Source: Diplonema papillatum (taxonomy: Eukaryota > Euglenozoa > Diplonemea > Diplonemida > Diplonemidae). From it: 64,000 nt of DNA. Each line of letters begins with the position of its first letter. Positions within the stretch are counted from its first letter, which is position 1. Under the pieces are notes generated by a model. That model did no database searches and was not told the origin of the DNA. It saw only the letters and a list, made by a program, of their open reading frames with translations. The position numbers were made by a program, and so were the translations under genes. The stretch lies in assembly GCA_030068145.1 (NCBI GenBank), contig JAPJBO010000185.1, forward strand, positions 124,001 through 188,000, read 5' to 3'. Of the stretch, positions 15,690-57,577 are shown piece by piece.

Positions 15690-15811
15690 CGGTTTTCAAA
15701 AAAAAGGTGCGCACGGCCGCACAGCGCAAGACGCAAGACCAGGCATTAGCAGCGGTGTGTGGATGAAACAGATCAATCGAGTGATAGCACACGACTTGAA
15801 GTCGGTGCAAG

Positions 15812-16045
15812 CCCGCAAGAGCTTCTGCCCTATCAGCTTTTGACGGTAGTGTAGTGGACTACCGTGGCTGTAACGGGTAACGGGGAATTAGGGTTCGATT
15901 CCGGAGAGGGAGCCTGAGAAACGGCTACCACATCTAAGTATGGCAGCAGGTACGCAAATTGCCCAATAGCAACACTGCTGAGGCAGCGAAGAGAAATAGC
16001 CTCGACACGTACTTAGTACGTTAGAAGCAATGGATGATATCTAAA
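15812..16045 (+). rRNA. SSU rRNA fragment (about 230 nt), not a full gene
   Basis: The core GGGTAACGGGGAATTAGGGT, TTCGATTCCGGAGAGGGAGC and CTGAGAAACGGCTACCACAT is universal eukaryotic 18S. Downstream, GAGGCAGCGAAGAGAAATAG replaces the usual GAGGTAGTGACAATAAATA and resembles the euglenozoan version. Upstream CTGCCCTATCAGCTTTTGAC also fits. Homology stops on both sides, so this is an orphan insert of the 5' domain. Best evidence in the window for the host lineage, although the fragment may have diverged since insertion. Confidence 0.8.
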
Positions 16046-20799: not shown

Positions 20800-21051
20800 G
20801 CTCCGTTCTTCTCCCTGACTTGTTCCCGGATTAGGATGACACATACTACTACTACTACTACTGCTCCAGGATGCGTTTTTTTGCCTATGGTCAACCGGGG
20901 GCTCAACATTGAGCCGTAAACCCGGAGATTAGTTTACGTTGCAGATTTAGACCGTCAGTCTATAAATCCAATGGAAGTTTTATGTCAGCTAATTTCGTGC
21001 AAGCGTCGGCAGAAGCGAAAGCTGCAGAACCAAGCAGTATCCTTCGATTTT
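20800..21051 (+). other. No gene seen
   Basis: Contains a short CTA run (20846-20861) and a CCGGGGGCTCAACATTGAGC imperfect hairpin. Otherwise unremarkable. Confidence 0.5.
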
Positions 21052-21206
21052 GTTTTTGTATAAGCACCTGCTTTGTAGGAAATGCTTGAGGAGGCTGCCA
21101 GTTGCAAAAGATCAAAGGAGGTAAATGTGCTGTAGCCCACACGAAACCCAGGTAAATCTGGGTTTAGTGGCGGGCGTAAGCGTTCAACAAAAAAGACCCA
21201 TTTTGT
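21052..21206 (+). repeat. Dispersed repeat R1, left half of an interrupted copy
   Basis: Continues through GTTCAACAAAAAAGACCCAT to TTTTGT, and the rest of R1 resumes at 25861 beginning with the same TTTTGT. The uninterrupted copy at 455-490 reads GACCCACTTTGTAGTTG. The interruption is therefore an insertion with a 6-bp target duplication. Confidence 0.8.
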
Positions 21207-21414
21207 TGGTGTGATCGGTATAACCATGGGGTACTACGGGGGAACTACGGGGAACTGGCCTTGGGGTGTCCTTTTTTTTTTTTGGTGGTTCTTGAGGGGC
21301 ATAGGTCTCATGTTTCCCTCAGACTGCGGGGGCTTTGGAGTTAGTTAAAGGGTTTGGGGCTTTTTGGGGGTGTTGGTGGACAGGGGCGCCAGGGGTCTTC
21401 AAACCGGCGCGTTT

Positions 21415-21768
21415 AAATTTAGGGAAAACGACAAAGTGGATTCTATATAACTGGATTACGACAAAGTGGATTATAATCCACTTTGTCGCCAATCCACTTT
21501 GTCGCCTAATCCACTTTGTCGCCCCGTATGACGGACCTAAGCTCACTTTTGATGGTTTCAATGAACTCAAACAGCTCAAAATAGTCACTTTCCCTGTGGG
21601 AACTTTTTGTGAAAGGGTCCCCCTATATAATTCATGCCGGTTGTCAGAAGCGACAAAGTGGATTATCAAAAGCGACAAAGTGGATTATTACTGGATTATA
21701 ATCCACTAATAATCCACTTTGTCGTAATCCAGTTATATAGAATCCGTTTTGTCGTTGACCCTAAATTT
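21415..21768 (+). mobile_element. Nested 354-bp palindromic element (CGACAAAGTGGATTA family)
   Basis: The outer ends AAATTTAGGG and CCCTAAATTT are exact inverses, and the inverted similarity runs about 58 bp inward (TCTATATAACTGGATTACGA on the left, inverted on the right). The word CGACAAAGTGGATT or its complement occurs at least eight times. It has no ORF. It is a MITE-like insert or a cluster of binding sites for the surrounding transposon. Confidence 0.7.
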
Positions 21769-21769
21769 A

Positions 21770-21822
21770 ACAGAGAAGCATTGCATAATAAAGCTAGACA
21801 GCTTTATGAAATGCTTCTCTGT
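21770..21822 (+). repeat. Strong hairpin, about 22-bp stem
   Basis: ACAGAGAAGCATTGCATAAT + AAAGC pairs with GCTTTATGAAATGCTTCTCT + GT around a 6-base loop, with one or two bulges. It sits between the palindromic element and ORF1. It could be a structured RNA or a further inverted-repeat end. Confidence 0.6.
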
Positions 21823-21895
21823 GTTCTAACATCTGCTGCTGTAGCCTAAACGAAATGTGACCCCAATACGATGCAATCGCCTTACAGGTGACTTT

Positions 21896-21930
21896 TGCAT
21901 CCGGAATCTCAAGCGAGCTCGAACTCTAAA
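21896..21930 (+). promoter_or_regulatory. Recurrent box upstream of transposon ORF1
   Basis: ATCCGGAATCTCAAGCGAGC and TCGAACTCTAAA lie about 30-60 bases before ATG 21958. This matches the box at 17290, 50027 and 60497. The shared placement before a start codon is the reason to consider a 5'-leader or promoter role. Confidence 0.3.
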
Positions 21931-21957
21931 TAAAGCGCAAATCATCTCTCTCGTAAA

Positions 21958-22911
21958 ATGATCGTTTCCATTGAACTGGCTACAAAAGAAAGTACCCAAA
22001 TAAAGGCACGAAACAAAATTCAAAAGCGTAAAATGCAATTCTGTATCGGCGTTACGTTTCACTGCTTTACGAAATATCTCCAAGTCCGCACGACGGAAGA
22101 GCGTGAGGAGAACGACAACAGCGAGACCGAAGAAAGCGACACCATCGACCTGAAGGAAGAAGACATGAAGTACAACGCCGACTTTATGACTAACGGCTCG
22201 CTGCAAACGTTCCACGAGTCCACAATACGGCCGCACCTGCTGGAATGCGGAAACCAGCTTGCAGAAAAGAAAGACGCTCCTTTCCTTAGGGGGGCTACCG
22301 GTGTCGCACGTCGCTGGTTTTATAAGGAGCGCGACGACGAGACGGAAGTGCTCAACGACGCGGGACTACAAAAGGTCGTCGAAAAGAAGTTGAACCTCCA
22401 TATAGTGGTCCGTTTGGAGCTGAAAAAGCACTCGGCAAAGCACGTCCGAAAGCACCTGCTAACACACGACGCGGAAGTGCACGACAACTCATACACATCG
22501 CGGGCGGACAGTAGCTCGATGATTACGAACAAGTTGGAGGAGGCGCTGTGTGACAGGTTCGGCAAGGTGGGGCTGAAGTTCGGACCCTCTTGGGTGCTTT
22601 GTATTTGTGGCACAAAGGTCAGCAACCCGCCGGACAGGCTTTCTGACGGGACGTCGTTTGTACGACACGGTTGTCGATGCCCGAAGTTCGCCAAGAAGCT
22701 GTCAAAGAACGCGAAAGCAGACCTAAAAGCTTTCAGAGAAAAAGAAGCTGCTAAAAATAAGAAGAAGGTGGCGGCCAGGAAGGATCTCACAAGGGGCATG
22801 TCCGAACAAGAAAAGGCCAACGCCAAAAAGATGTTTGAAATGGTTGGCTTCAAACGAAAGGCAGACGAGGAAGCAGAGGTCGAGAACCCACGCAAAGAGG
22901 CAAAAATCTAG
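21958..22911 (+). CDS. Transposon ORF1: 317-aa charged protein with a Cys/His cluster
   Basis: ATG start in AAAATG, stop TAG at 22909-22911. The N-terminus is basic, followed by an acidic Glu/Asp/Ser stretch (about residues 45-70), a mixed region with a RRWFYKERDD segment, then a CICG ... HGCRC motif (about residues 219-242) that could bind metal. The last 70 residues are Lys-rich with coiled-coil character. It may be a DNA- or RNA-binding accessory protein of the element. No similarity to a known transposase family was evident to me. It lies 212 bp before the downstream ORF and in another frame. Confidence 0.6.
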   Translation: MIVSIELATKESTQIKARNKIQKRKMQFCIGVTFHCFTKYLQVRTTEEREENDNSETEESDTIDLKEEDMKYNADFMTNGSLQTFHESTIRPHLLECGNQLAEKKDAPFLRGATGVARRWFYKERDDETEVLNDAGLQKVVEKKLNLHIVVRLELKKHSAKHVRKHLLTHDAEVHDNSYTSRADSSSMITNKLEEALCDRFGKVGLKFGPSWVLCICGTKVSNPPDRLSDGTSFVRHGCRCPKFAKKLSKNAKADLKAFREKEAAKNKKKVAARKDLTRGMSEQEKANAKKMFEMVGFKRKADEEAEVENPRKEAKI

Positions 22912-23123
22912 CTTTCTGGTGATAGCCTCCATCGTAAAGGCATTTCTTTTTTTGTGTGTTCCCGACGATCAATTATAGTTTTTTGTTGTCTCAATTCTCT
23001 TTTGTTCTGGATGTCCATTGGAAGCGACGGCCTGTCTATCCGGCGGCAACTCGGGTATTCGACTAGCTGACGAAGAGAAATTAACGTTTGTAATGTCGGT
23101 GTGTTCAAAACCAATGCAGGGGT

Positions 23124-25484
23124 TTGTTGCAGGAAAAGGAACGAGAGCGAGTCAGGAAAGCCTGGAACAACGGGGAGATGAAGATTGACGTTACTTTCGT
23201 GAAGCCGTGTGGAATGCGCCATGAAGGTTTTCTCGTCGAGAATGCTGACTGGAACGCTATCGTAGGACTTGCGAAGTCGGTTGGCTACGCGCTTGCTGGG
23301 ACATATGTGCGCCTCGCTACCGGCCCCCCTTCAACAGTTTGTCTGGCCGACTGTCCTGTTGTTCTCAGAGAGGACTTGTGGAAGCTCAGTTGCGGCCATT
23401 GCGTGCTTGTACCAGTCCTCGACAAGAATCGCGCTGTGGTGACGGACGGCGGAGGCCTGGCCGACGGAGAACTGCGAGGTATCGTAGACAGCCTGATGGC
23501 GGAAGATGTCAAGATCCGACGCATACCCCGGGTACTCCTCATTATCCAGCGAGTAAAAGTGAGTCGTTTCAGGGTTGAGCGAGCATGGCAGAGCAACCTG
23601 GTTGCGCGTGATATCTCGTTTTTGTGTGCCATCGAAGACAAGGATGTCGCCTTGCAGCACGATAGCACACCTGTTAACGAGAATTGGCATGCAATCCACT
23701 TGACAGCAACTTGGATGCAAGGAACATCACAAAGGCACCATTTCCTGAAGGCGTGCCTTTCAACCGTGCACGATGGCAGCATGGTGGAAGACGCAGTGAC
23801 AGAAATCTGTTGCTACTTCTCGTCTCTCACGCAAGAACTTCGAGGGCTTGGCGTTCTCGGCCCTGATGCCTTTTTCGAGCAAGACCGCTTCTGCTGTATG
23901 TTTACGGACCGCGGAGCAGGTGTGGGGGGCCTCAAACAACCCCGGGTATACGAACCAGTGCACAGGTTGCATCGGACGATGAGCAGGGTTGTGACCGAGC
24001 TCAAGATTGGGAAGGAGATGACGTTCCTGTGTGCAGCAGCGAACGACGTGGCATCTTCACCTGCATTTGCTGTATGGCTGCGGGAACAGGGCGGCCCGGA
24101 GTTGAAAGGTGTGTTGTGGCAGAGGGCGACGACAGGGAGATTCGGAACGTCCTGGGCAGCCGCGTGGTCTCTATCATGCACCGTTGGTCAGAAGACCCTA
24201 TTGGGATGGTACTTGGACTTCCTCGGCAGCTTTGATGAAACGACAGAGTATTCGAAAAAAAAGAAGAATATCGTCATGTACCTGACTCCTCGTGGTACCC
24301 AGGAGCGCTTCCGTCGAATAGGTTTAGCATTTGAGATCATTGCATATCCGGCGTTGAGGCGAATCTGGCAGTACGCTGGGGAAGAAGTACTCGACGACGA
24401 CTTTACTGCCGGCTTTGCCAGCGATTTGATGGCTACCCTGGGTCTCTATTTCACAAAAATTCGAACTGGAAAGGACATTTTCGGGAATCCGCTGTGGATG
24501 GAAAAAGCGAGACGAGGTGTGACATTTCCTACGAAGGCCCCGGAAGTAAAGTTTGTGTGCCAGCGGAACTCCGTTCAGCAGTTCATTCGGCGTATGAAAG
24601 CCCACTTAGACGCGGCTGGCTCTATTGCGAGCTATTACGGAGGTCCCGGCGTGCAGATGCCAACCATTAAACCCATAGACGAGGCAACAGATTCAGCTTT
24701 CCTGTCTTCTGTTGCCCACAGGTTTGCCTGCGGCATTGTTGCAGAGCTGACCATGTACAGCAAGGCAACAGCGGATACCCCAAGACCCGTAAAGCTAGGA
24801 CCGAGTCTCATAGAGGGCACCGTTGGATCCATGAAACGTCACCTGCAACAGCAGACAAACACGCGCATCCGCGATGAATGCATCAGGGCAAAGCTATCGA
24901 GCACCAACGCTCACCTGAGCATTCACCAGCCCTACCCAAAGACAATTCAGCAATATGCTGCGCAAAGGATAGAAACTATCCAGGCGAGGAAAGACCGATG
25001 CGGTTTGCTGAAGTTGACCCACTACAAGGCGAAGCAAGTTTCTCATGACGACAGGAAAAAGTGGCAGGCAGAACGCAATGACTTCATCAAAAGGATTCCT
25101 TGGCGATTCGATGCAGACAGTCATTGGCGAAAGGATGCGCTTGTGCAGCAAGCTGAACGGCGAGGTATCAAGTCCTGCCAAAACTGGAGCAAAGACAAGC
25201 TTGTGTCTGCATGTCAGGAAGCTGATGAGAAGTTGCTTCTTGACGAGCTAAAACAGCACGCCCTTGCCCGAAGCATGCGATTCCGGGCTAATGTTGTTGC
25301 TGGCAAGTTGCTCCATGACCTGGAACAGAAGGATGCAAAAACCGAAGAACCCGAGGCTTTGCCGCGTCCGAGGTCTCCCTCCCGGCAGCGAAAGAAGCAA
25401 CCCCAAGAAGACGAGCCCCCCCTGAAAAAGGTGCGCTTCGAGACAGCTAATAGCGAGGATAGTGAAAGCAGCGAGGAGATGTAG
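23124..25484 (+). CDS. Transposon ORF2: 786-aa protein, candidate transposase
   Basis: The largest ordinary (non-repeat, well-mixed) ORF in the window. The frame opens at TTG 23124; the first ATG is 23178, but an acceptor-like TTTGTTGCAG at 23123-23132 suggests either splicing from upstream or start at 23178. The first 600 residues have globular composition with many aromatic and hydrophobic residues, including CMFTDRGAGVGGL and GWYLDFLGSFDETT segments that carry acidic residues. The last 60 residues are basic, Pro/Ser-rich with PPLKKVRFE, a likely nuclear signal, then an acidic tail. Size, single-gene dominance and position inside a TIR/TSD-bounded insertion argue for the recombinase of the element; a DDE or other catalytic triad could not be proven by eye. 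Confidence 0.55.
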   Translation: MLQEKERERVRKAWNNGEMKIDVTFVKPCGMRHEGFLVENADWNAIVGLAKSVGYALAGTYVRLATGPPSTVCLADCPVVLREDLWKLSCGHCVLVPVLDKNRAVVTDGGGLADGELRGIVDSLMAEDVKIRRIPRVLLIIQRVKVSRFRVERAWQSNLVARDISFLCAIEDKDVALQHDSTPVNENWHAIHLTATWMQGTSQRHHFLKACLSTVHDGSMVEDAVTEICCYFSSLTQELRGLGVLGPDAFFEQDRFCCMFTDRGAGVGGLKQPRVYEPVHRLHRTMSRVVTELKIGKEMTFLCAAANDVASSPAFAVWLREQGGPELKGVLWQRATTGRFGTSWAAAWSLSCTVGQKTLLGWYLDFLGSFDETTEYSKKKKNIVMYLTPRGTQERFRRIGLAFEIIAYPALRRIWQYAGEEVLDDDFTAGFASDLMATLGLYFTKIRTGKDIFGNPLWMEKARRGVTFPTKAPEVKFVCQRNSVQQFIRRMKAHLDAAGSIASYYGGPGVQMPTIKPIDEATDSAFLSSVAHRFACGIVAELTMYSKATADTPRPVKLGPSLIEGTVGSMKRHLQQQTNTRIRDECIRAKLSSTNAHLSIHQPYPKTIQQYAAQRIETIQARKDRCGLLKLTHYKAKQVSHDDRKKWQAERNDFIKRIPWRFDADSHWRKDALVQQAERRGIKSCQNWSKDKLVSACQEADEKLLLDELKQHALARSMRFRANVVAGKLLHDLEQKDAKTEEPEALPRPRSPSRQRKKQPQEDEPPLKKVRFETANSEDSESSEEM

Positions 25485-25860
25485 CGCAGAAACGTCACAG
25501 GTTTGCAGACTGGGTTATTTCATCAAGATGTTGGAACCGTTTGACCGTCGTCCCACAAATTTCGCTTTCCAATTTCCGGAGGACGTGTGCCGTCTTGTTT
25601 TTTGGTCGTTTTATTTTGTTTTTACGCAGTGTCTTCTTCTTCATCCTCTTGGCTTTCCGACCTTCGTGGGCCAAATATCATCAGAATTGTCCACATTGTG
25701 TGACAGAAAGGTGCAAAGTCGCTAGGAAGTGCTCGCCAAGATCAAGAATCACAGCCCTGAAGTACTCAGCAAAAACTGAAAAAGCAAAAAAAAAAACGAC
25801 ACCCCCCCCCCTGGTTGAACTACGGGGGAACTACGGGGAACTGGCCCACCGACCACACCA

Positions 25861-25942
25861 TTTTGTAGTTGTATTGTTTCTCCCCCTCTAGCCTCCTTCG
25901 AAGTAAGCACAAGGCAGCCCCTCGAGTATTTTGGAGTTTCGC
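25861..25942 (+). repeat. Dispersed repeat R1, right half of the interrupted copy
   Basis: TTTTGTAGTTGTATTGTTTC through CTCGAGTATTTT continues the copy that stops at 21206. Confidence 0.8.
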
Positions 25943-30250: not shown

Positions 30251-30308
30251 AAAGGGATGGGAAATAAGATTGATCTCCAGGCAAACCCATTCAAAATCGT
30301 TGTTTCAG

Positions 30309-31202
30309 GCTCGCATGTGGGGGTGCGAGGGGGGCGGAAGATGCCGGAGCCACCGTCCGGGCGGGGGAGGCGGAACTTCACGATCCACGGGACGCTGTTC
30401 GAGCTGCCGACCCGGTATGAGATGCACAAAGCCGCGGACCACGACGGCGGCCGTGCGGTCGGGTACGGGACCTACGGCGCCGTGGCCCTGAGCTTCGACC
30501 GCTGGCTGCGGCAGAAGGTGCTCGTGAAGAAGCTCGGCCTGCCACCGGGTGCCGGCAGCCGCGACCGGGGGGTCCTCGCCGTCCTCGCGAAGGAGCTCCG
30601 GCTGCTCGCGCGGTGCGCACAGTGCAACGTGATCCGCCCCTTGGACGCGTTTTCCGCGACGAAGCACGCGAAGGGAGGCGCGAACGCTCTGTACCTCACC
30701 GTTCCGTGCTACGAAACTACGCTGCAGAGCATCATCGCGTCTGAACAGCAATTAGACGACCCTCATATACGGCTGATTGCGTTCCAAATCCTGGAGGGCC
30801 TCGCGTACCTGCATGAGTGCGGTGTGCTTGTAACCCGCTTGTCCCCATCGAGCATACTGTGTAACGTGGACTGCGGACTGTGCATCGCAGACCTCGGCTG
30901 CTGCATCCCGGCGGACGTGCCGCACAACGCTCAGTATCTCGCGCCGGAGACCGATTCATTCAAGCCGGCCTGCAACTGGTACAAAGCGCCGGAGCACCTG
31001 CTCAAAGCGCCGGGTCTAACGCCCGCCTGCGACGTGTGGAGCGCTGGAGTCGTCCTCATGGAGCTGCACACGCGGAGGCCCGTCTTCCCGGGCGTCGACG
31101 TTTTGAAGCAAATCTCGCTCATAGCAGACGTGCTCGGGGTCGACAGGGCCGGGACCTCCCCGGTCACGGCGGCCGAAGTCGCCTCGATGCGAGAAGAAAC
31201 AG
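30309..31202 (+). CDS. MAPK-like pseudokinase, first large exon
   Basis: Likely starts at ATG 30341 (MPEPPSGRGR), or is an internal exon after the acceptor TGTTTCAG. Residues from that Met: glycine loop GYGTYG 41-46, beta-3 Lys at 63 (VLVKK), alpha-C Glu at 85, YLHECGVL 157-163. The catalytic HRD is replaced by V164-T165-R166 and the metal-binding Asn by S171; DFG reads DLG (184-186); WYKAPE 213-218 and DVWSAGV are kept. The activation loop has SFK where MAP kinases have TxY. It is therefore a CMGC/MAPK fold lacking catalytic residues, probably a scaffold or allosteric partner. The exon ends at ACAG|GCATGC, a GC donor, in phase 1. GC-rich codon use throughout. Confidence 0.8.
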
Positions 31203-31230
31203 GCATGCTCCATTGAATGTCTTTTTCGCA

Positions 31231-32224: not shown

Positions 32225-34030
32225 TCACACGCCCCCCTCTTTCCGGACTTCGCCGGCCACATGATGCATAACTTTCAACCTACTTTGTATTCGCGACTCG
32301 TGAGCGAACACTTCTGACTTCCCTCTGAGACTCAATCGGTTCTTGATTTCCGAGTGTGTGGGTCTACATGATCAAGTCTGGGCCGGGCGATTGTGAAGCT
32401 GTTTGTCTTCAACGCTCCCTACATGATGCATAACTTTCAACCTACTTTGTATTATCGCGACTCGTGAACGAATACTTCTGACTTCCCTCTGAGACTCAAT
32501 CGGTTCTTGGCATCCGAATGTGTGGGTCAATGTGATCAAGTCTGGGCTGGGCGATTGTGAAGCTGTATGTCTTACACGCTCCCTTTTTCCGGACTTCGCT
32601 GACAACATGATGCATAACTTTCAACCTACTTTGTATTATCGCGACTCGTGAGCGAATACTTCTGACTTCCCTCTGAGACTCGATCGGTTCTTGGCATCCG
32701 AATGTGGGGGTCAATATGATCAAGTCTGGGCCGGGCGATTGTGAAGCTGCTTTGCTTACACGCTCCCTTTTTCCGGACTTCGCCGACCACATGATGCATA
32801 ACTTTCAACCTACTTTGTATTATCGCGACTCGTGAGCGAATACTTCTGACTTCCCTCTGAGACTCGATCGGTTCTTGGCATCTGCTTGTGTGGGTCAAGC
32901 TGTGACCAAGTGCGGCCGCATCGAGGGCGTGGCTATTGTGAAGCTGCTTTGCTTACACGCCCCTCTCTTTCCGGACTTCGCCGACCACATGATGCATAAC
33001 TTTCAACCTACTTTGTACTCTCGCGACTCGTGAGCGAATATTTCTGACTTCCCTCTGAGACTCAATCGGTTCTTGGCATCCGAATGTGGGGGTCAATATG
33101 ATCAAGTCTGGGCCGGGCGATTGTGAAGCTGCTTTGCTTACACGCTCCCTTTTTCCGGACTTCGCCGACCACATGATGCATAACTTTCAACCTACTTTGT
33201 ATTATCGCGACTCGTGAGCGAATACTTCTGACTTCCCTCTGAGACTCGATCGGTTCTTGGCATCTGCTTGTGTGGGTCAAGCTGTGACCAAGTGCGGCCG
33301 CATCGAGGGCGTGGCTATTGTGAAGCTGCTTTGCTTACACGCCCCTCTCTTTCCGGACTTCGCCGACCACATGATGCATAACTTTCAACCTACTTTGTAC
33401 TCTCGCGACTCGTGAGCGAATATTTCTGACTTCCCTCTGAGACTCAATCGGTTCTTGGCATCCGAATGTGTGGGTCAATATGATCAAGTCTGGGCCGGGC
33501 TATTGTGAAGCTGCTTTGCTTACACGCCCCTCTCTTTCCGGAGTTGGCCGGCCACATGATGCATCACTTCAACGTACTTATCGCGACTCGTGAGCGAATA
33601 CTTCTGACTTCCCTCTGAGATTCAATCGGTTCTTGGCATCCGAATGTGTGAGTCAATATGATCAAGTCTGGGCCGTGCGATTGTGAAGTATGTCTGACAC
33701 GCTCCGGACTTCGCCGACCACATGATGCATGACTTTCAACCTACTTTGTATTATCGCGACTCGTGAGCGAATACTTCTGACTTCCCTCTGAGACTCAATC
33801 GGTTCTTGATATCCGAATGTGCGGGTCAAGCTGTGACCAAGTGCAGGCCGCATCGAGGGCGTGGCTATTGTGAAGCTGCTTTGCTTACACGCCCCTCTCT
33901 TTCCGGACTTCGCCGACCAGATGATGCAAAACTTTCAACCTACTTTGTACTCTCGCGACTTGTCTTCTGACTTCCCTTTGAGACTCAATCGGTTCTTGGC
34001 ATCCGAATGTGCGGGTCAAGTTGCGACCCA
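32225..34030 (+). repeat. Satellite array, about 185-bp unit, roughly ten copies
   Basis: CATGATGCATAACTTTCAAC recurs at about 32262, 32421, 32607, 32791, 32988, 33171, 33369, 33556, 33721 and 33921 with unit lengths of about 160-200. Units also share TCGCGACTCGTGAGCGAATA and GAGACTCAATCGGTTCTTG. Two sub-types exist: one has GACCAAGTGCGGCCGCATCG inserted. Higher-order pairing is visible because 32800-33000 and 33180-33380 are near-identical. Confidence 0.9.
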
Positions 34031-34659
34031 GGCCTAGTGCGAGCCTGCGGGACAGCTTCTCATTCGTTTGTCCTCAGCCGCCATCATCGGCAGCACACGA
34101 CGCGTGCAGAACGGTAGTCAGTAGCGACGTGTGCTGTCTATCGTCACAGATTGATGCTGCATATTCAAGTTCAAACTACTACAAAAGGGAAAGTGAGAAG
34201 TCATGCCAGTAAATTGACACCTTGCTCACTATCGACGGTCTTGGGAAACCCGCGTCAACCCACCCGAACCCTCCTGCTCCGCGCGATAGCTGTTCGCGTG
34301 AGCTCCAACAGGGCAGATCCACGTGATGGCATTGCCGTGCACCGGTCGCCTCCAGCCGGGCCTTGATTGCCAAACGGGTTCTGCACGTAGACTCCGCCTC
34401 CCCACAGGGTAGTGTCAGTGGTGTTGACCATCCGCCGGGCCCGTGTACCGTGGGAGGCAAGCCTCCTTCCTGGCGGAGCCATCTGCCCAGGCTATTCGGT
34501 AGGGTTTAGGGAGTGCATCCAGCCTGGTCGGCACCGTTCTTAAGTTCGCAGCCGGGTCCTTCGACCGCTTCTTCCCGAAGCGTGCTGTGCACTCCAGGAA
34601 AGTTTCCCAGGGTCTGAACGGGCTAGTACAGCAGTACATAGATATTTCTCGACTCCTGC

Positions 34660-34890
34660 CAGCAGTAGCCACCAGCAGCCACCAGTAGCCACCGGCTGTA
34701 GCCACCAGCAGTCACCGGCAGCCACTGGTAGCCACTAGCAGCCACGAGTAGCCACGAGTAGCTACCAGTAGCCACAAGCAGCCACCCGTAGCCACCCGTA
34801 GCCACCCCGCAGCCGCCCCGTAGCCGCCCGTAGCCACCAGCAGGCACCCGTCGCCACCAGCAGGCACCCGTCGCCACCAGCAGCCACTGG
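34660..34890 (+). repeat. GTAGCCACC-type simple repeat inside the 2.78-kb unit
   Basis: Tandem AGCAGCCACC/AGTAGCCACC/CCGTAGCC words. Matching tracts lie at 37443-37674 and 40227-40500. The third differs in length, showing repeat-level change after duplication. Minus-strand frames read Trp/Leu/Ala/Gly-rich nonsense. Confidence 0.85.
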
Positions 34891-35395
34891 TCTTGGTCCT
34901 TCTCAGGATTATCATTCTCTGCGAGAGCCTATCAAGCACGTGGCTTTTACGTGCGGACGGAAAGAAAGCTCGTTGTCAATGATCAGTCATGGGAAACGGT
35001 GCTGCGGAGTTGTTGTCGCCCCCTGTTGGAAACCTCGGTGTCGGGAAGCCGTCCCTCCCGCCCCTTCCAGTAGGCCTTGACCCAGCGATTGGAAGATTCG
35101 GGGGGGAGGTGACGGGAACAACCACGGGACCCCGTGGGTGCGCGTCTCGTGTCCTTCGAGGTCCGGCAGTTCCTGTGCGTTGTCGTTCTCGTCCTGCACA
35201 CCTGTCACCCAGTACCCACGGTGGAGTGGATCCTGTTTGCCGTTCTGGCGCCAGGAGAGGATCTTGAGTGTCCCGGCGGAAGTGCCACGGCAAGTGTCTA
35301 GTGGTGTTACCTCTTCCGGGTCGTCGGGAGAGTTGAACGGAAGTTCGTACCGCACAAGGAGGCAGAACCTGCCGCGGGAAAACGATTTGGTCCAG

Positions 35396-36307
35396 CTACA
35401 TTCTTCGCTTGACCCACGTCTCGACAGGGTCTGAGACGTAACTCACGATTGCGTTCGCTTTTTTGGAAACAACCCCATCGACGCGGATGCGTGCGACCGG
35501 GTCCTCCAAATACAACGTGCGAGAATGCTCTGCTGAAAAAGTCTTGGTCTTGAAAACATTTGACCACAGATAGTGGTCGGTGTTGCTAACGCTTAACAAT
35601 AGGTTTGTGGTTTCCTTTTCAGGTCCAAATACCCAGATAGTGCAGAAGCTGTCTTGAAAAGTCGACCACGCGCTGATAATTCCTTTTTTGCTAAACATTT
35701 CAAAATTGTTCTCATTGATCGCGTCGTAGAACGGGACAATTTTAGAGTTTGCGTCATTTCGCAAATCGTTTACGTCTATGGTCAAACATTTTTTCACCAT
35801 TCCTTTCTCTTTGTATGTTTTGACAGTGTCGTTGATTTCTACTGCCAGACAGCTGAGGACTCTATACAGAATCTCCAACCCCCTTTCTATTTGGTCTCTG
35901 GTGCCTAGAGCGTATTCGAGGCAGAGGGTGTAGTTCTGTATTTTGATGTTTGACCTCACACCGCACTTTAGAGAGATGGGCATTACCAGCCCGGGTGCGA
36001 TGTGTCTTAGAAGAGCTATACTCTTCAGGGTATCCTCTGTCCAAAATGTTAAACATAATGTCTTCAGTACGTCCGACGACGTTATGGCGGTTTCTAAGGA
36101 GAGTGACGTGAAGTCGAAGTGGAACACGTCGAAGAAGCATTTGTAAACTGCCTTCGGAACCACCATGAGGAACACGACAGTTCCTAGCTGGAGGTTCAGG
36201 AGGCCCCAGATGGCTGACACATCCCCAGAAAACTTGAGGTTTGGCAGCCATGCCACCGTGACGTCGGCCAGGTTGCTGTCCTTCGAGGTTTTGCCGTAAG
36301 AACCCAC
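35396..36307 (-). CDS. 303-aa ORF of the 2.78-kb unit, copy 1, function unknown
   Basis: Well-mixed composition, unlike neighbouring repeat frames: an N-terminal hydrophobic region (WGLLNLQLGTVVFLMVVPK), a central Leu/Ile-rich helical region with EYALGTRDQIERGLEILYRV, and a C-terminal mixed part. An overlapping 164-codon frame is also open (35862-36356), so the coding frame is not proven. The unit duplicated it exactly at 38180-39091. It lies antisense within the pseudokinase intron. It could be the gene of a mobile element whose limits are blurred by the duplication. No family recognised. Confidence 0.45.
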   Translation of the reverse strand: MGSYGKTSKDSNLADVTVAWLPNLKFSGDVSAIWGLLNLQLGTVVFLMVVPKAVYKCFFDVFHFDFTSLSLETAITSSDVLKTLCLTFWTEDTLKSIALLRHIAPGLVMPISLKCGVRSNIKIQNYTLCLEYALGTRDQIERGLEILYRVLSCLAVEINDTVKTYKEKGMVKKCLTIDVNDLRNDANSKIVPFYDAINENNFEMFSKKGIISAWSTFQDSFCTIWVFGPEKETTNLLLSVSNTDHYLWSNVFKTKTFSAEHSRTLYLEDPVARIRVDGVVSKKANAIVSYVSDPVETWVKRRM

Positions 36308-38179
36308 GTCCCACTTTCATCTCGGGCACGTGGAGTCCTGTCGGTGGTGTGCGCATCCCGCCGTGCGCTTTGCTCCAGTTTCTACCGTCTACTTTCGTAG
36401 TTTGACTTGTTGTGCAGCAACACGATGATGGACGACCACTGGTAATGGCGTGACGAGCTACGTGCAGTGGCCGAGTGTGATGAGCCAGAAGCCAGCTTCT
36501 AATTCCTACTAGTTCAGTTTGTCGTCACGGATTGTTGTTGCACATAAAGCTAGAACTACTACACTTCCCTCTGAGACTCAATCGGTTCTTGATATCCGAA
36601 TGTGCGGGTCAAGCTGTGACCAAGTGCAGGCCGCATCGAGGGCGTGGCTATTGTGAAGCTGCTTTGCTTACACGCCCCTCTCTTTCCGGACTTCGCCGAC
36701 CAGATGATGCAAAACTTTCAACCTACTTTGTACTCTCGCGACTTGTCTTCTGACTTCCCTTTGAGACTCAATCGGTTCTTGGCATCCGAATGTGCGGGTC
36801 AAGTTGCGACCCAGGCCTAGTGCGAGCCTGCGGGACAGCTTCTCATTCGTTTGTCCTCAGCCGCCATCATCGGCAGCACACGACGCGTGCAGAACGGTAG
36901 TCAGTAGCGACGTGTGCTGTCTATCGTCACAGATTGATGCTGCATATTCAAGTTCAAACTACTACAAAAGGGAAAGTGAGAAGTCATGCCAGTAAATTGA
37001 CACCTTGCTCACTATGGACGGTCTTGGGAAACCCGTCAACCCACCCGAACCCTCCTGCTCCGCGCGATAGCTGTTCGCGTGAGTTCCAACAGGGCAGATC
37101 CACGTGATGGCATTGCCGTGCACCGGTCGCCTCCAGCCGGGCCTTGATTGCCAAACGGGTTCTGCACGTAGACTCCGCCGCCTCCCCACAGGGTAGTGTC
37201 AGTGGTGTTGACCATCCGCCGGGCCCGTGTACCGTGGGAGGCAAGCCTCCTTCCTGGCGGAGCCATCTGCCCAGGCTATTCGGTAGGGTTTAGGGAGTGC
37301 ATCCAGCCTGGTCGGCACCGTTCTTAAGTTCGCAGCCGGGTCCTTCGACCGCTTCTTCCCGAAGCGTGCTGTGCACTCCAGGAAAGTTTCCCAGGGTCTG
37401 AACGGGCTAGTACAGCAGTACATAGATATTTCTCGACTCCTGCCAGCAGTAGCCACCAGCAGCCACCAGTAGCCACCGGCTGTAGCCACCAGCAGTCACC
37501 GGCAGCCACTGGTAGCCACTAGCAGCCACGAGTAGCCACGAGTAGCTACCAGTAGCCACAAGCAGCCACCCGTAGCCACCCGTAGCCACCCCGCAGCCGC
37601 CCCGTAGCCGCCCGTAGCCACCAGCAGGCACCCGTCGCCACCAGCAGGCACCCGTCGCCACCAGCAGCCACTGGTCTTGGTCCTTCTCAGGATTATCATT
37701 CTCTGCGAGAGCCTATCAAGCACGTGGCTTTTACGTGCGGACGGAAAGAAAGCTCGTTGTCAATGATCAGTCATGGGAAACGGTGCTGCGGAGTTGTTGT
37801 CGCCCCCTGTTGGAAACCTCGGTGTCGGGAAGCCGTCCCTCCCGCCCCTTCCAGTAGGCCTTGACCCAGCGATTGGAAGATTCGGGGGGGAGGTGACGGG
37901 AACAACCACGGGACCCCGTGGGTGCGCGTCTCGTGTCCTTCGAGGTCCGGCAGTTCCTGTGCGTTGTCGTTCTCGTCCTGCACACCTGTCACCCAGTACC
38001 CACGGTGGAGTGGATCCTGTTTGCCGTTCTGGCGCCAGGAGAGGATCTTGAGTGTCCCGGCGGAAGTGCCACGGCAAGTGTCTAGTGGTGTTACCTCTTC
38101 CGGGTCGTCGGGAGAGTTGAACGGAAGTTCGTACCGCACAAGGAGGCAGAACCTGCCGCGGGAAAACGATTTGGTCCAG

Positions 38180-39091
38180 CTACATTCTTCGCTTGACCCA
38201 CGTCTCGACAGGGTCTGAGACGTAACTCACGATTGCGTTCGCTTTTTTGGAAACAACCCCATCGACGCGGATGCGTGCGACCGGGTCCTCCAAATACAAC
38301 GTGCGAGAATGCTCTGCTGAAAAAGTCTTGGTCTTGAAAACATTTGACCACAGATAGTGGTCGGTGTTGCTAACGCTTAACAATAGGTTTGTGGTTTCCT
38401 TTTCAGGTCCAAATACCCAGATAGTGCAGAAGCTGTCTTGAAAAGTCGACCACGCGCTGATAATTCCTTTTTTGCTAAACATTTCAAAATTGTTCTCATT
38501 GATCGCGTCGTAGAACGGGACAATTTTAGAGTTTGCGTCATTTCGCAAATCGTTTACGTCTATGGTCAAACATTTTTTCACCATTCCTTTCTCTTTGTAT
38601 GTTTTGACAGTGTCGTTGATTTCTACTGCCAGACAGCTGAGGACTCTATACAGAATCTCCAACCCCCTTTCTATTTGGTCTCTGGTGCCTAGAGCGTATT
38701 CGAGGCAGAGGGTGTAGTTCTGTATTTTGATGTTTGACCTCACACCGCACTTTAGAGAGATGGGCATTACCAGCCCGGGTGCGATGTGTCTTAGAAGAGC
38801 TATACTCTTCAGGGTATCCTCTGTCCAAAATGTTAAACATAATGTCTTCAGTACGTCCGACGACGTTATGGCGGTTTCTAAGGAGAGTGACGTGAAGTCG
38901 AAGTGGAACACGTCGAAGAAGCATTTGTAAACTGCCTTCGGAACCACCATGAGGAACACGACAGTTCCTAGCTGGAGGTTCAGGAGGCCCCAGATGGCTG
39001 ACACATCCCCAGAAAACTTGAGGTTTGGCAGCCATGCCACCGTGACGTCGGCCAGGTTGCTGTCCTTCGAGGTTTTGCCGTAAGAACCCAC
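38180..39091 (-). CDS. 303-aa ORF, copy 2
   Basis: Identical in length and, as far as I can see, in sequence to copy 1. A recent duplicate; retention of the frame says little because there has been little time for decay. Confidence 0.45.
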   Translation of the reverse strand: MGSYGKTSKDSNLADVTVAWLPNLKFSGDVSAIWGLLNLQLGTVVFLMVVPKAVYKCFFDVFHFDFTSLSLETAITSSDVLKTLCLTFWTEDTLKSIALLRHIAPGLVMPISLKCGVRSNIKIQNYTLCLEYALGTRDQIERGLEILYRVLSCLAVEINDTVKTYKEKGMVKKCLTIDVNDLRNDANSKIVPFYDAINENNFEMFSKKGIISAWSTFQDSFCTIWVFGPEKETTNLLLSVSNTDHYLWSNVFKTKTFSAEHSRTLYLEDPVARIRVDGVVSKKANAIVSYVSDPVETWVKRRM

Positions 39092-40845
39092 GTCCCACTT
39101 TCATCTCGGGCACGTGGAGTCCTGTCGGTGGTGTGCGCATCCCGCCGTGCGCTTTGCTCCAGTTTCTACCGTCTACTTTCGTAGTTTGACTTGTTGTGCA
39201 GCAACACGATGATGGACGACCACTGGTAATGGCGTGACGAGCTACGTGCAGTGGCCGAGTGTGATGAGCCAGAAGCCAGCTTCTAATTCCTACTAGTTCA
39301 GTTTGTCGTCACGGATTGTTGTTGCACATAAAGCTAGAACTACTACACTTCCCTCTGAGACTCAATCGGTTCTTGATATCCGAATGTGCGGGTCAAGCTG
39401 TGACCAAGTGCAGGCCGCATCGAGGGCGTGGCTATTGTGAAGCTGCTTTGCTTACACGCCCCTCTCTTTCCGGACTTCGCCGACCAGATGATGCAAAACT
39501 TTCAACCTACTTTGTACTCTCGCGACTTGTCTTCTGACTTCCCTTTGAGACTCAATCGGTTCTTGGCATCCGAATGTGCGGGTCAAGTTGCGACCCAGGC
39601 CTAGTGCGAGCCTGCGGGACAGCTTCTCATTCGTTTGTCCTCAGCCGCCATCATCGGCAGCACACGACGCGTGCAGAACGGTAGTCAGTAGCGACGTGTG
39701 CTGTCTATCGTCACAGATTGATGCTGCATATTCAAGTTCAAGCTACTACAAAAGGGAAAGTGAGAAGTCATGCCAGTAAATTGACACCTTGCTCACTATC
39801 GACGGTCTTGGGAAACCCGTCAACCCACCCGAACCCTCCTGCTCCGCGCGATAGCTGTTCGCGTGAGTTCCAACAGGGCAGATCCACGTGATGGCATTGC
39901 CGTGCACCGGTCGCCTCCAGCCGGGCCTTGATTGCCAAACGGGTTCTGCACGTAGACTCCGCCGCCTCCCCACAGGGTAGTGTCAGTGGTGTTGACCATC
40001 CGCCGAGCCCGTGTACCGTGGGAGGCAAGCCTCCTTCCTGGCGGAGCCGTCTGCCCAGGCTATTCGGTAGGGTTTAGGGAGTGCATCCAGCTTGGTCGGC
40101 ACCGTTCTTAAGTTCGCAGCCGGGTCCTTCGACCGCTTCTTCCCGAAGCGTGCTGGGCACTCCAGGAAGGTTTCCCAGGGTCTGAACGAGCAGTACAGCA
40201 GTACATAGAGATTTCTCGACTCCTGCCAGCAGTAGCCACCAGTAGCCACCGGCTGTAGCCACCAGCAGTCACCAGCAGCCACCGGTAGCCACTAGCAGCC
40301 ACGAGTAGCCACGAGTAGCCACGAACAGCCACCCGTAGCCACCCGTAGCCACGAGCAGCCACCCGTAGCCACCCGTAGGCTCTCCTTAGCCGCCCGTAGC
40401 CACCCCGTAGCCACCCCGTAGCCGCCCCGTAGCCGCCCGTAGCCACCAGCAGGCACCCGTCGCCACCAGCAGGCACCCATCGTCACCAGCAGCCACTGGT
40501 CTTGGTCCTTCTCAGGATTATCATTCTCTGCGAGAGCCTATCAAGCACGTGGCTTTTACGTGCGGACGGAAAGAAAGCTCGTTGTCAATGATCAGTCATG
40601 GGAAACGGTGCTGCGGAGTTGTTGTCGCCCTGTTGGAAACCTCGGTGTCGGGAAGCCGTCCCTCCCGCCTCTTCCAGTAGGCCTTGACCCAGCGATTGGA
40701 AGATTCGGGGGGGAGGTGACGGGAACCCCGTGGGTGCGCGTCTCGTGTCCTTCGAGGTCCGGCAGTTCCTGTGCGTCGTCGTTCTCGTCCTGCACACCTG
40801 TCACCCAGTACCCACGGTGGAGTGGATCCTGTTTGCCATTCTGGC

Positions 40846-43751: not shown

Positions 43752-44010
43752 GGCCGTCACAAGCCAGTTATCCCTGTGGTAATTTTTCTGTCACCTCCGG
43801 CTTCATCCCTTGAACATGAAGCGAGAACAAAGGATCGTTAAGCCATGCTTTCACACCGAGGATCGGTACTTAAGATCGTGTATCGAGCAAGCTTTTACCC
43901 TTATGCTCTACGCGAGTTTTCCGTTCCCGCTAAGCTTGCCTTAGGACACCTGCGTTAATGTGTATCAGATGTGCCGCCCCAGCCAAACTCCCCACCTGAC
44001 TGGTCTCCAA
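43752..44010 (-). rRNA. LSU rRNA domain V fragment, minus strand
   Basis: The reverse complement reads GGTGGGGAGTTTGGCTGGGG, CGCAGGTGTCCTAAGGCAAG, AAAGCATGGCTTAACGATCC and TTACCACAGGGATAACTGGC, the peptidyl-transferase region. It stops just after GGCTTGTGACGGCC where a full gene would continue. Homology on the far side fades near 44010-44110. It is a partial insert with lineage-specific differences. Confidence 0.85.
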
Positions 44011-44369
44011 ACGAGGATTCGCGAGCCGAAGCCCGTTTGTCGCTGGAAACGGATCCCAACGCCTTTACCCGATCTTCTTGCCGCAGCGCGTTCTGACTGC
44101 CAAGTTGGCACCTGGCTGGGCGAGCATGACACAGTGTCCTGCGTGGGACGAAAAGCGTCGGAAACTTCTGCCAAGAGGCAACATTCCAACTGTCCAAGTT
44201 TCACCTACTGCACTCCCAACTTTCCCGCCAAATCTCTCAGACCCATACAAGCCCCTGCCGATACGTATTCCTACAAAACAATATGTATGCACGTGGGGCC
44301 CGAGATCGCTTTCCTCGCGAACGTGAACTCGGTGTCGGTCACAAGAGCCATGGAAAGGGCAAAGCACAT

Positions 44370-51033: not shown

Positions 51034-57577
<6,544 letters not shown>

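Follow-up and report, generated by a model that had tools for sequence, protein, structure and literature searches.

Structure and copy number of the element

A DNA transposon with two open reading frames (ORFs) occupies positions 21207 to 25860 of the 64,000-nucleotide stretch of Diplonema papillatum analysed here (contig JAPJBO010000185.1, positions 124,001 to 188,000; hereafter the window), where it splits a dispersed repeat of which an intact copy lies in the same window. The element begins with TGGTGTGATCGG, ends with CCGACCACACCA and has TTTTGT on either side, and its 12-bp terminal inverted repeats are paired at 11 of 12 positions. When the flanks were joined across the insertion, they matched the intact repeat near positions 320-544 at 94% over 225 bp. 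The split repeat, the TTTTGT at both edges and the inverted ends had all been reported in a preliminary description of the window, and we confirm them with exact coordinates, with one mismatch in the inverted repeats. A chance origin of the structure is rejected because 30 further full-length copies have the same ends. The parts of the locus are as follows.

21207..25860, unstranded: whole element, 4,654 bp, ends set by the 30 other fetched copies
21201..21206, unstranded: left target duplication TTTTGT, 6 bp in the window copy (family rule 5 bp)
25861..25866, unstranded: right target duplication TTTTGT
21207..21218, plus strand: left terminal inverted repeat TGGTGTGATCGG
25849..25860, minus strand: right terminal inverted repeat, minus-strand reading TGGTGTGGTCGG
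21049..21206, plus strand: left part of the split dispersed repeat, a hot spot for insertions
25867..25932, plus strand: right part of the interrupted dispersed repeat
21233..21260, plus strand: left subterminal repeat block of ~11-bp units (AACTACGGGG)
25819..25846, plus strand: right subterminal repeat block, equal to the left block at 28/28 bases and in the same orientation
21263..21282, plus strand: inner inverted arm GGGGTGTC with T-tract, similar arms seen by eye in relatives
25786..25805, minus strand: inner inverted arm, A-tract with GACACCCC
21413..21770, unstranded: internal foldback in the 5' region of the element, 62-nt arms (94% complementary), several CGACAAAGTGGATTA copies in both orientations
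21958..22911, plus strand: ORF1, putative accessory protein of 317 amino acids (aa), invariant C215-x-C217...H237-x3-C241, basic C-terminus, homologues in diverged families
22600..22680, plus strand: putative CCHC zinc-binding motif of ORF1
23178..25484, plus strand: ORF2, putative DDE transposase of 768 aa, candidate catalytic codons D 23661, D 23907 and E 24813 (first base)
25104..25358, plus strand: tentatively assigned SAP-like C-terminal region of ORF2

Copies were sought in the genome assembly (271 Mb, 2,910 contigs). In a DNA search, the best 31 of 1,450 candidates gave 31 places, one of them the window copy, and each is close to full length; the 62 remaining matches fell within these places and represent short internal repeats. 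Among the 30 top-scoring copies fetched, 29 do not differ from one another over 4,656 bp and the remaining one carries a single substitution, while the window copy differs from the 29 identical copies by one 1-bp and one 3-bp indel. All of the best 57 of 1,561 candidates in a protein search with ORF2 were 100% identical over 783 residues. With a 100-aa query from the ORF2 core, the best 150 of 182 candidates comprised 113 near-identical matches by our own tally (111 at 100%; 92 with the full 796-codon frame) and 37 further matches that were diverged or partial. A search for the left terminus, allowing up to 2 mismatches, found 109 occurrences genome-wide against 0 for the reversed pattern used as control. 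The element ends thus recur elsewhere in the genome, as the check proposed earlier had anticipated, and the earlier reading of the locus as a complete two-ORF transposon stands for a family of ~100 near-identical copies with fixed ends. Given its fixed ends, its target-site duplications and its dispersed copies, this family belongs to the class II inverted-repeat transposons, and the intact repeat in the window provides a paralogous empty site for comparison. A single-copy host gene, considered as the alternative identity of ORF2, is ruled out by its ~113 near-identical cores in the genome.

We assessed target-site duplications in 60 copies, namely the window copy, the 30 whole copies and 29 end pairs from a further set of 30, of which one was dropped when an end was not found; 59 copies were testable. 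An exact 5-bp duplication was present in 48/59 copies, a 6-bp duplication in 2/59 (the window copy being one) and a 7-bp duplication in 1/59, and none had 8 bp. Mismatched flank pairs, which served as a chance control, gave an exact duplication in 16 of 3,422 cases and one with extra bases in 59 of 3,422. The significance previously attached to the six-base duplication is therefore withdrawn; as a family trait, 6 bp is ruled out by the 48 exact 5-bp cases. We consider the element to be a DNA transposon that is autonomous and was active very recently, from a group with no match among described superfamilies in this analysis (probability about 0.72), and it may still be active, or may have been so until very recently.

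Encoded proteins and diverged families

The Cys/His protein of 317 aa described previously is ORF1, whose C-x-C and H-x3-C residues are invariant in four proteins. ORF2 had been given as 786 aa, as would be obtained by counting from a TTG at 23124; its alignment with homologues begins at the ATG at 23178, for a length of 768 aa. A start at the upstream TTG or at a splice acceptor at 23133 was rejected, as homology in the alignment begins at Met 23178. Neither ORF had a credible family match in Pfam, NCBIfam, PHROGs or PDB sequences, so that the pair remains, as first reported, unmatched to a known superfamily. Viral contigs, genome contigs and phage records contained no relative (plasmid and metagenome collections lay outside the search), and a virus or prokaryote origin was set aside.

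The alignment of five ORF2 proteins from four families has 11 invariant acidic columns, among them D177, D259 and E561 of the ORF2 sequence P0002, which are D162, D244 and E546 of the 768-aa ORF2. In the window ORF2 the second aspartate (D2) lies 82 residues after the first (D1) and the glutamate (E) 302 residues after D2, positions that would fit an RNase H-type DDE core in which a large insertion precedes the glutamate. Our own inspection of the sequences further suggests strands around D177 and D259. Towards the C-terminus, a single-sequence structure model of ORF2 was confident at residues 651-680 (predicted local distance difference test, pLDDT, 82-89 by block), where a helix-loop-helix begins the C-terminal region, and an 85-residue C-terminal piece modelled alone (mean pLDDT 87) comprised a helix, a loop and one long helix. 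The C-terminus of the C14-family ORF2 matched SAP (PF02037) in two stretches (E = 3.2e-4, 20.7 bits vs. a cut-off of 23.9), and other small folds were weakly matched in the remaining three scanned C-termini. The modelled piece fits the start of a SAP motif, which is not proof of one. The SAP fold is linked to binding of A/T-rich DNA.

Three diverged families were found in the same genome with the ORF2 core query, and eight loci were fetched, which group as L039, L040 and L045; L042, L043, L044 and the decayed L046; and L041 alone. Identity of their ORF2 to that of the window was 37-39% in pairwise codon alignments and 36-38% in the five-sequence alignment, and that of their ORF1 to the window's was 20-25%. 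Both genes were matched in the same order in L039-L044, and L045 had no ORF1 match. Between families, the proportion of synonymous differences (pS) was 0.74-0.82, which is saturated, and that of non-synonymous differences (pN) was 0.28-0.46 in ORF2 and 0.36-0.56 in ORF1; because pN is low relative to the saturated synonymous sites, both ORFs have been under long-term purifying selection. The diverged copies themselves look, from their sequences, to be decaying. Ten equally scoring partial ORF2 relatives were also observed (contigs C68, C174, C1232, C1350, C1481, C1864, C1947, C141, C1912 and C2643), which may be a non-autonomous derivative; the one of these ten that was fetched, L046, is a decayed C1400-family copy at 88%.

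The organisation of the ends is conserved across these families. TGGTGTGRTC occurs at both ends of all six diverged copies L039-L044, which represent three families. In the five elements examined for their end plan (the window copy and L039-L042, four families), the order from the outside inward is an inverted TGGTGTGRTC, phased ~11-bp repeats and then, judged by eye, an inverted G-run with a T-tract. The 11-bp unit differs between families, with one unit common to the C2 and C14 families, and the exact unit was found on the plus strand only, at both ends. Through this nested inverted, direct and inverted arrangement, the element has distinct left and right ends. The foldback at 21413..21770 may be a nested foldback element that the family carries along, or a regulatory region.

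Target choice, possible excision and a proposed mechanism

Insertion sites are strongly palindromic, with A-runs to the left and T-runs to the right, each roughly one helical turn away from the cut; the A-tract lies ~8-14 bp to the left and the T-tract ~8-15 bp to the right of the duplication centre. We scored 27 rebuilt sites (maximum 14) on the presence of A at positions -14 to -8 and of T at positions +8 to +14 relative to that centre, leaving out L010, L014, L015 and L022 of the first 31 for want of a clean duplication or flank. The mean score was 10.3/14, compared to 3.4 elsewhere in the same flanks (0 of 20,000 resamplings reached it), for positions that were picked after inspecting the sites, and sites added later keep the pattern. 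The 21 sites outside the shared repeat had a mean of 10.1, and of 47 sites, 41 have A at -13 and 39 have T at +13. The dispersed repeat split by the window copy contains this A/T frame and is a hot spot that holds at least 9 of the 60 copies, six counted by string match and three (window, L010 and L101) by eye.

Evidence on excision came from the same repeat. L051/L052 (contig C28 near 176051) has the hot-spot target CTACA-TTGTA-ACAAAG, in which the added TTGTA mirrors the flank, and this suggests a footprint-like site resembling an opened flanking hairpin. A narrow search of the hot spot gave one match, at C1459:20295 (control 0), which is not readable as a clean footprint. Cut-and-paste transposition is likely.

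We infer a mechanism in which ORF2 is a transposase that would cut at the TGGTGTG ends through an RNase H-like DDE site formed by D162, D244 and E546 and interrupted by a large helical insertion with hAT-like spacing, and would join the ends to the target with a 5-bp stagger. Its SAP-like tail may recognise the A/T tracts, with each half-site contacted by one arm. The 11-bp repeats specific to each family would be the binding sites of ORF1, as suggested by the rapid divergence of both ORF1 and the repeat unit relative to the more constant ORF2 and outer ends, and the same repeat orientation at both ends could let the complex distinguish left from right. Together, the sharp palindromic frame and the SAP-like tail provide a concrete, testable proposal for how target DNA is recognised by a transposase through its shape or its sequence, and the equal orientation of the repeats raises the question of how the complex tells left from right.

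Several further features were observed elsewhere in the window. Ribosomal RNA (rRNA)-like fragments (small-subunit, large-subunit and 5.8S; Rfam) lie at 15737-15986, 43786-44018 and 1812-1922 and are perhaps parts of rRNA-derived repeats. A tandem array with ~2,784-bp spacing spans 33780-40630, in which three sampled stretches were 78-100% identical between three copies; it contains a 256-aa ORF twice, and the one copy scanned matched no Pfam family at E 0.01. An ORF with a protein kinase domain lies at 30257-31216, and a 1,830-aa ORF with a cyclic-nucleotide-binding domain and long homopolymer tracts at 52085-57577.

Alternative readings and comparison with known systems

The element is best read as a DDE-like DNA transposon that is left unassigned and is a candidate for a new superfamily, from a comparison that had Repbase and Dfam outside it. 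More specifically, and tentatively, at somewhat under even odds, it would represent an undescribed eukaryotic DDE superfamily, characterised by TGGTGTGRTC ends, 5-bp duplications, two conserved genes (a Cys/His accessory protein and a SAP-tailed transposase), direct phased 11-bp subterminal repeats, targeting of palindromic A- and T-tracts, and recent activity. As of 2022, Repbase grouped the known eukaryotic DNA transposons into 23 superfamilies (PMC10045372), and another superfamily, present in many intact and near-identical copies, would, if true, be a notable and directly testable addition.

Several observations weigh against this assessment. No profile search found a transposase for ORF2, and the single-sequence model (mean pLDDT 36.5) is too poor for the catalytic core and gives no evidence of fold. 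Since all 11 acidic columns are invariant in the five proteins, the three residues of the triad were picked on the basis of pattern and spacing. A C/DxxH signature between D2 and E is common to Dada, hAT, Kolobok, MuDR and P (PMC10045372); it is not among the invariant columns of ORF2, which has an invariant E274-x-x-H277 and C300-x-x-x-N304 between D2 and E instead. The SAP match is below the Pfam cut-off and was obtained for one of four scanned C-termini, no such match having been reported for the window's C-terminus or the two others, and the modelled 85-residue piece runs into one long helix with no second SAP unit. Identity among the fetched copies is biased upward because these were the best-scoring ones. 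Seven of the 59 testable copies have a 5-bp duplication with 1-5 extra bases in all (up to 3 per side) next to the ends, and one copy has no duplication; an exact 5-bp duplication was present in three of the six diverged copies L039-L044 and missing in the other three. Some of these copies are broken (ORF1 is partial in L040 and in two frames in L042, and ORF2 lacks its C-terminus in L039), and most differences within the diverged families are non-synonymous (6/7 and 2/3 codons), too few to judge. Excision rests on one footprint-like and one ambiguous site, and cut-and-paste is not proved. The extra junction bases are A in L010, TG/TCA in L015, C in L049 and L065, G in L067 and TT in L087 and L097, and are possibly carried-over donor bases or bases added during joining.

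The superfamily may already be present in Repbase or among unclassified transposable-element families of algae and protists, outside the libraries compared; we regard this as a possible explanation that we do not favour. Repbase and Dfam were not part of the comparison, and one brown-alga survey contains 51 DNA/Unknown families (PMC12477816). Nevertheless, a limited literature search, which is weak evidence, turned up no description that we recognised as a two-ORF element with 5-bp duplications and TGGTGTG ends.

A deeply diverged hAT lineage with 5-bp duplications and TGGTGTG ends is an unlikely alternative, in spite of several resemblances. As in Hermes and Ac, there are three acidic residues with a long stretch between D2 and E, and the spacings of 82 and 302 residues are close to those of the Hermes triad D180/D248/E572. 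LWQRA..GRFG[TS] resembles the TRWNS motif of hAT, GPSLxEG..G resembles its C-terminal ER..S..G, and the target CTACA-TTGTA-ACAAAG would be a single case of a hairpin-type footprint. However, hAT target duplications are typically 8 bp and two conserved ORFs are unusual for hAT, whereas 48 of 59 duplications here are 5 bp and none is 8 bp, and two genes are conserved. C-x-x-H is not among the invariant ORF2 columns, the TGGTGTG ends and the SAP-like C-terminus differ from hAT, and neither P0002 nor the five aligned ORF2 matched a hAT profile in Pfam up to E 10, at settings where HMMER filters drop most matches above ~0.1.

Replication of a DDE element by copy-and-paste through an intermediate, which would account for identical copies, seems improbable. 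The ~100 near-identical copies and the extra bases at some junctions are consistent with it, but a recent burst needs no replicative mechanism, the footprint-like site suggests excision, and the element has just two genes, with no match to a resolvase or a replication protein for either. An older family whose copies were made to look identical by assembly or polishing is hardly credible, even with copies ranked by score and divergent ones not fetched, given distinct flanks with matching duplications in 48/59 copies, 111 of the ~113 close matches at 100% over the ORF2 core and diverged families in the same assembly that have not been homogenised.

We therefore retain the unassigned DDE-like transposon and leave it without a superfamily because the defining features of hAT, Transib, P and integrase-type elements failed where tested. 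Its layout comes nearest to hAT, its duplication length to Transib and its two-gene arrangement to En/Spm or MuDR. Transib has a 5-bp duplication and a CACWATG-type terminal motif, and the related ProtoRAG has a second gene; the present element is like them in its 5-bp duplication, the large insertion predicted in its catalytic domain and, for ProtoRAG, its second gene. It differs in having TGGTGTGRTC ends, not CACWATG, in four families and subterminal repeats in direct orientation, and ORF2 had no RAG1 or Transib match in Pfam or PDB sequences. P elements have 8-bp target duplications, and the element is distinguished from P elements and THAP9 by its 5-bp duplication and by the lack of a THAP or P-element profile match in Pfam. 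In retroviral-integrase-type enzymes, D2 and E are ~35 residues apart, compared to 302 for the candidate residues in ORF2, which also had no rve profile match in Pfam; this separates the element from Ginger2, IS3EU and Polinton. It nonetheless resembles these three in its short duplication and TG..CA ends, their duplications being 4 or 5 bp in Ginger2 and 6 bp in Polinton (PMC10045372). En/Spm and MuDR, compared by profile search and duplication length only, are similar by analogy in having two genes (TnpA with TnpD in En/Spm), one of which is probably an accessory DNA binder, and arrays of subterminal repeats, whereas the present element has a single repeat orientation at both ends and a duplication length, ends and proteins of its own.

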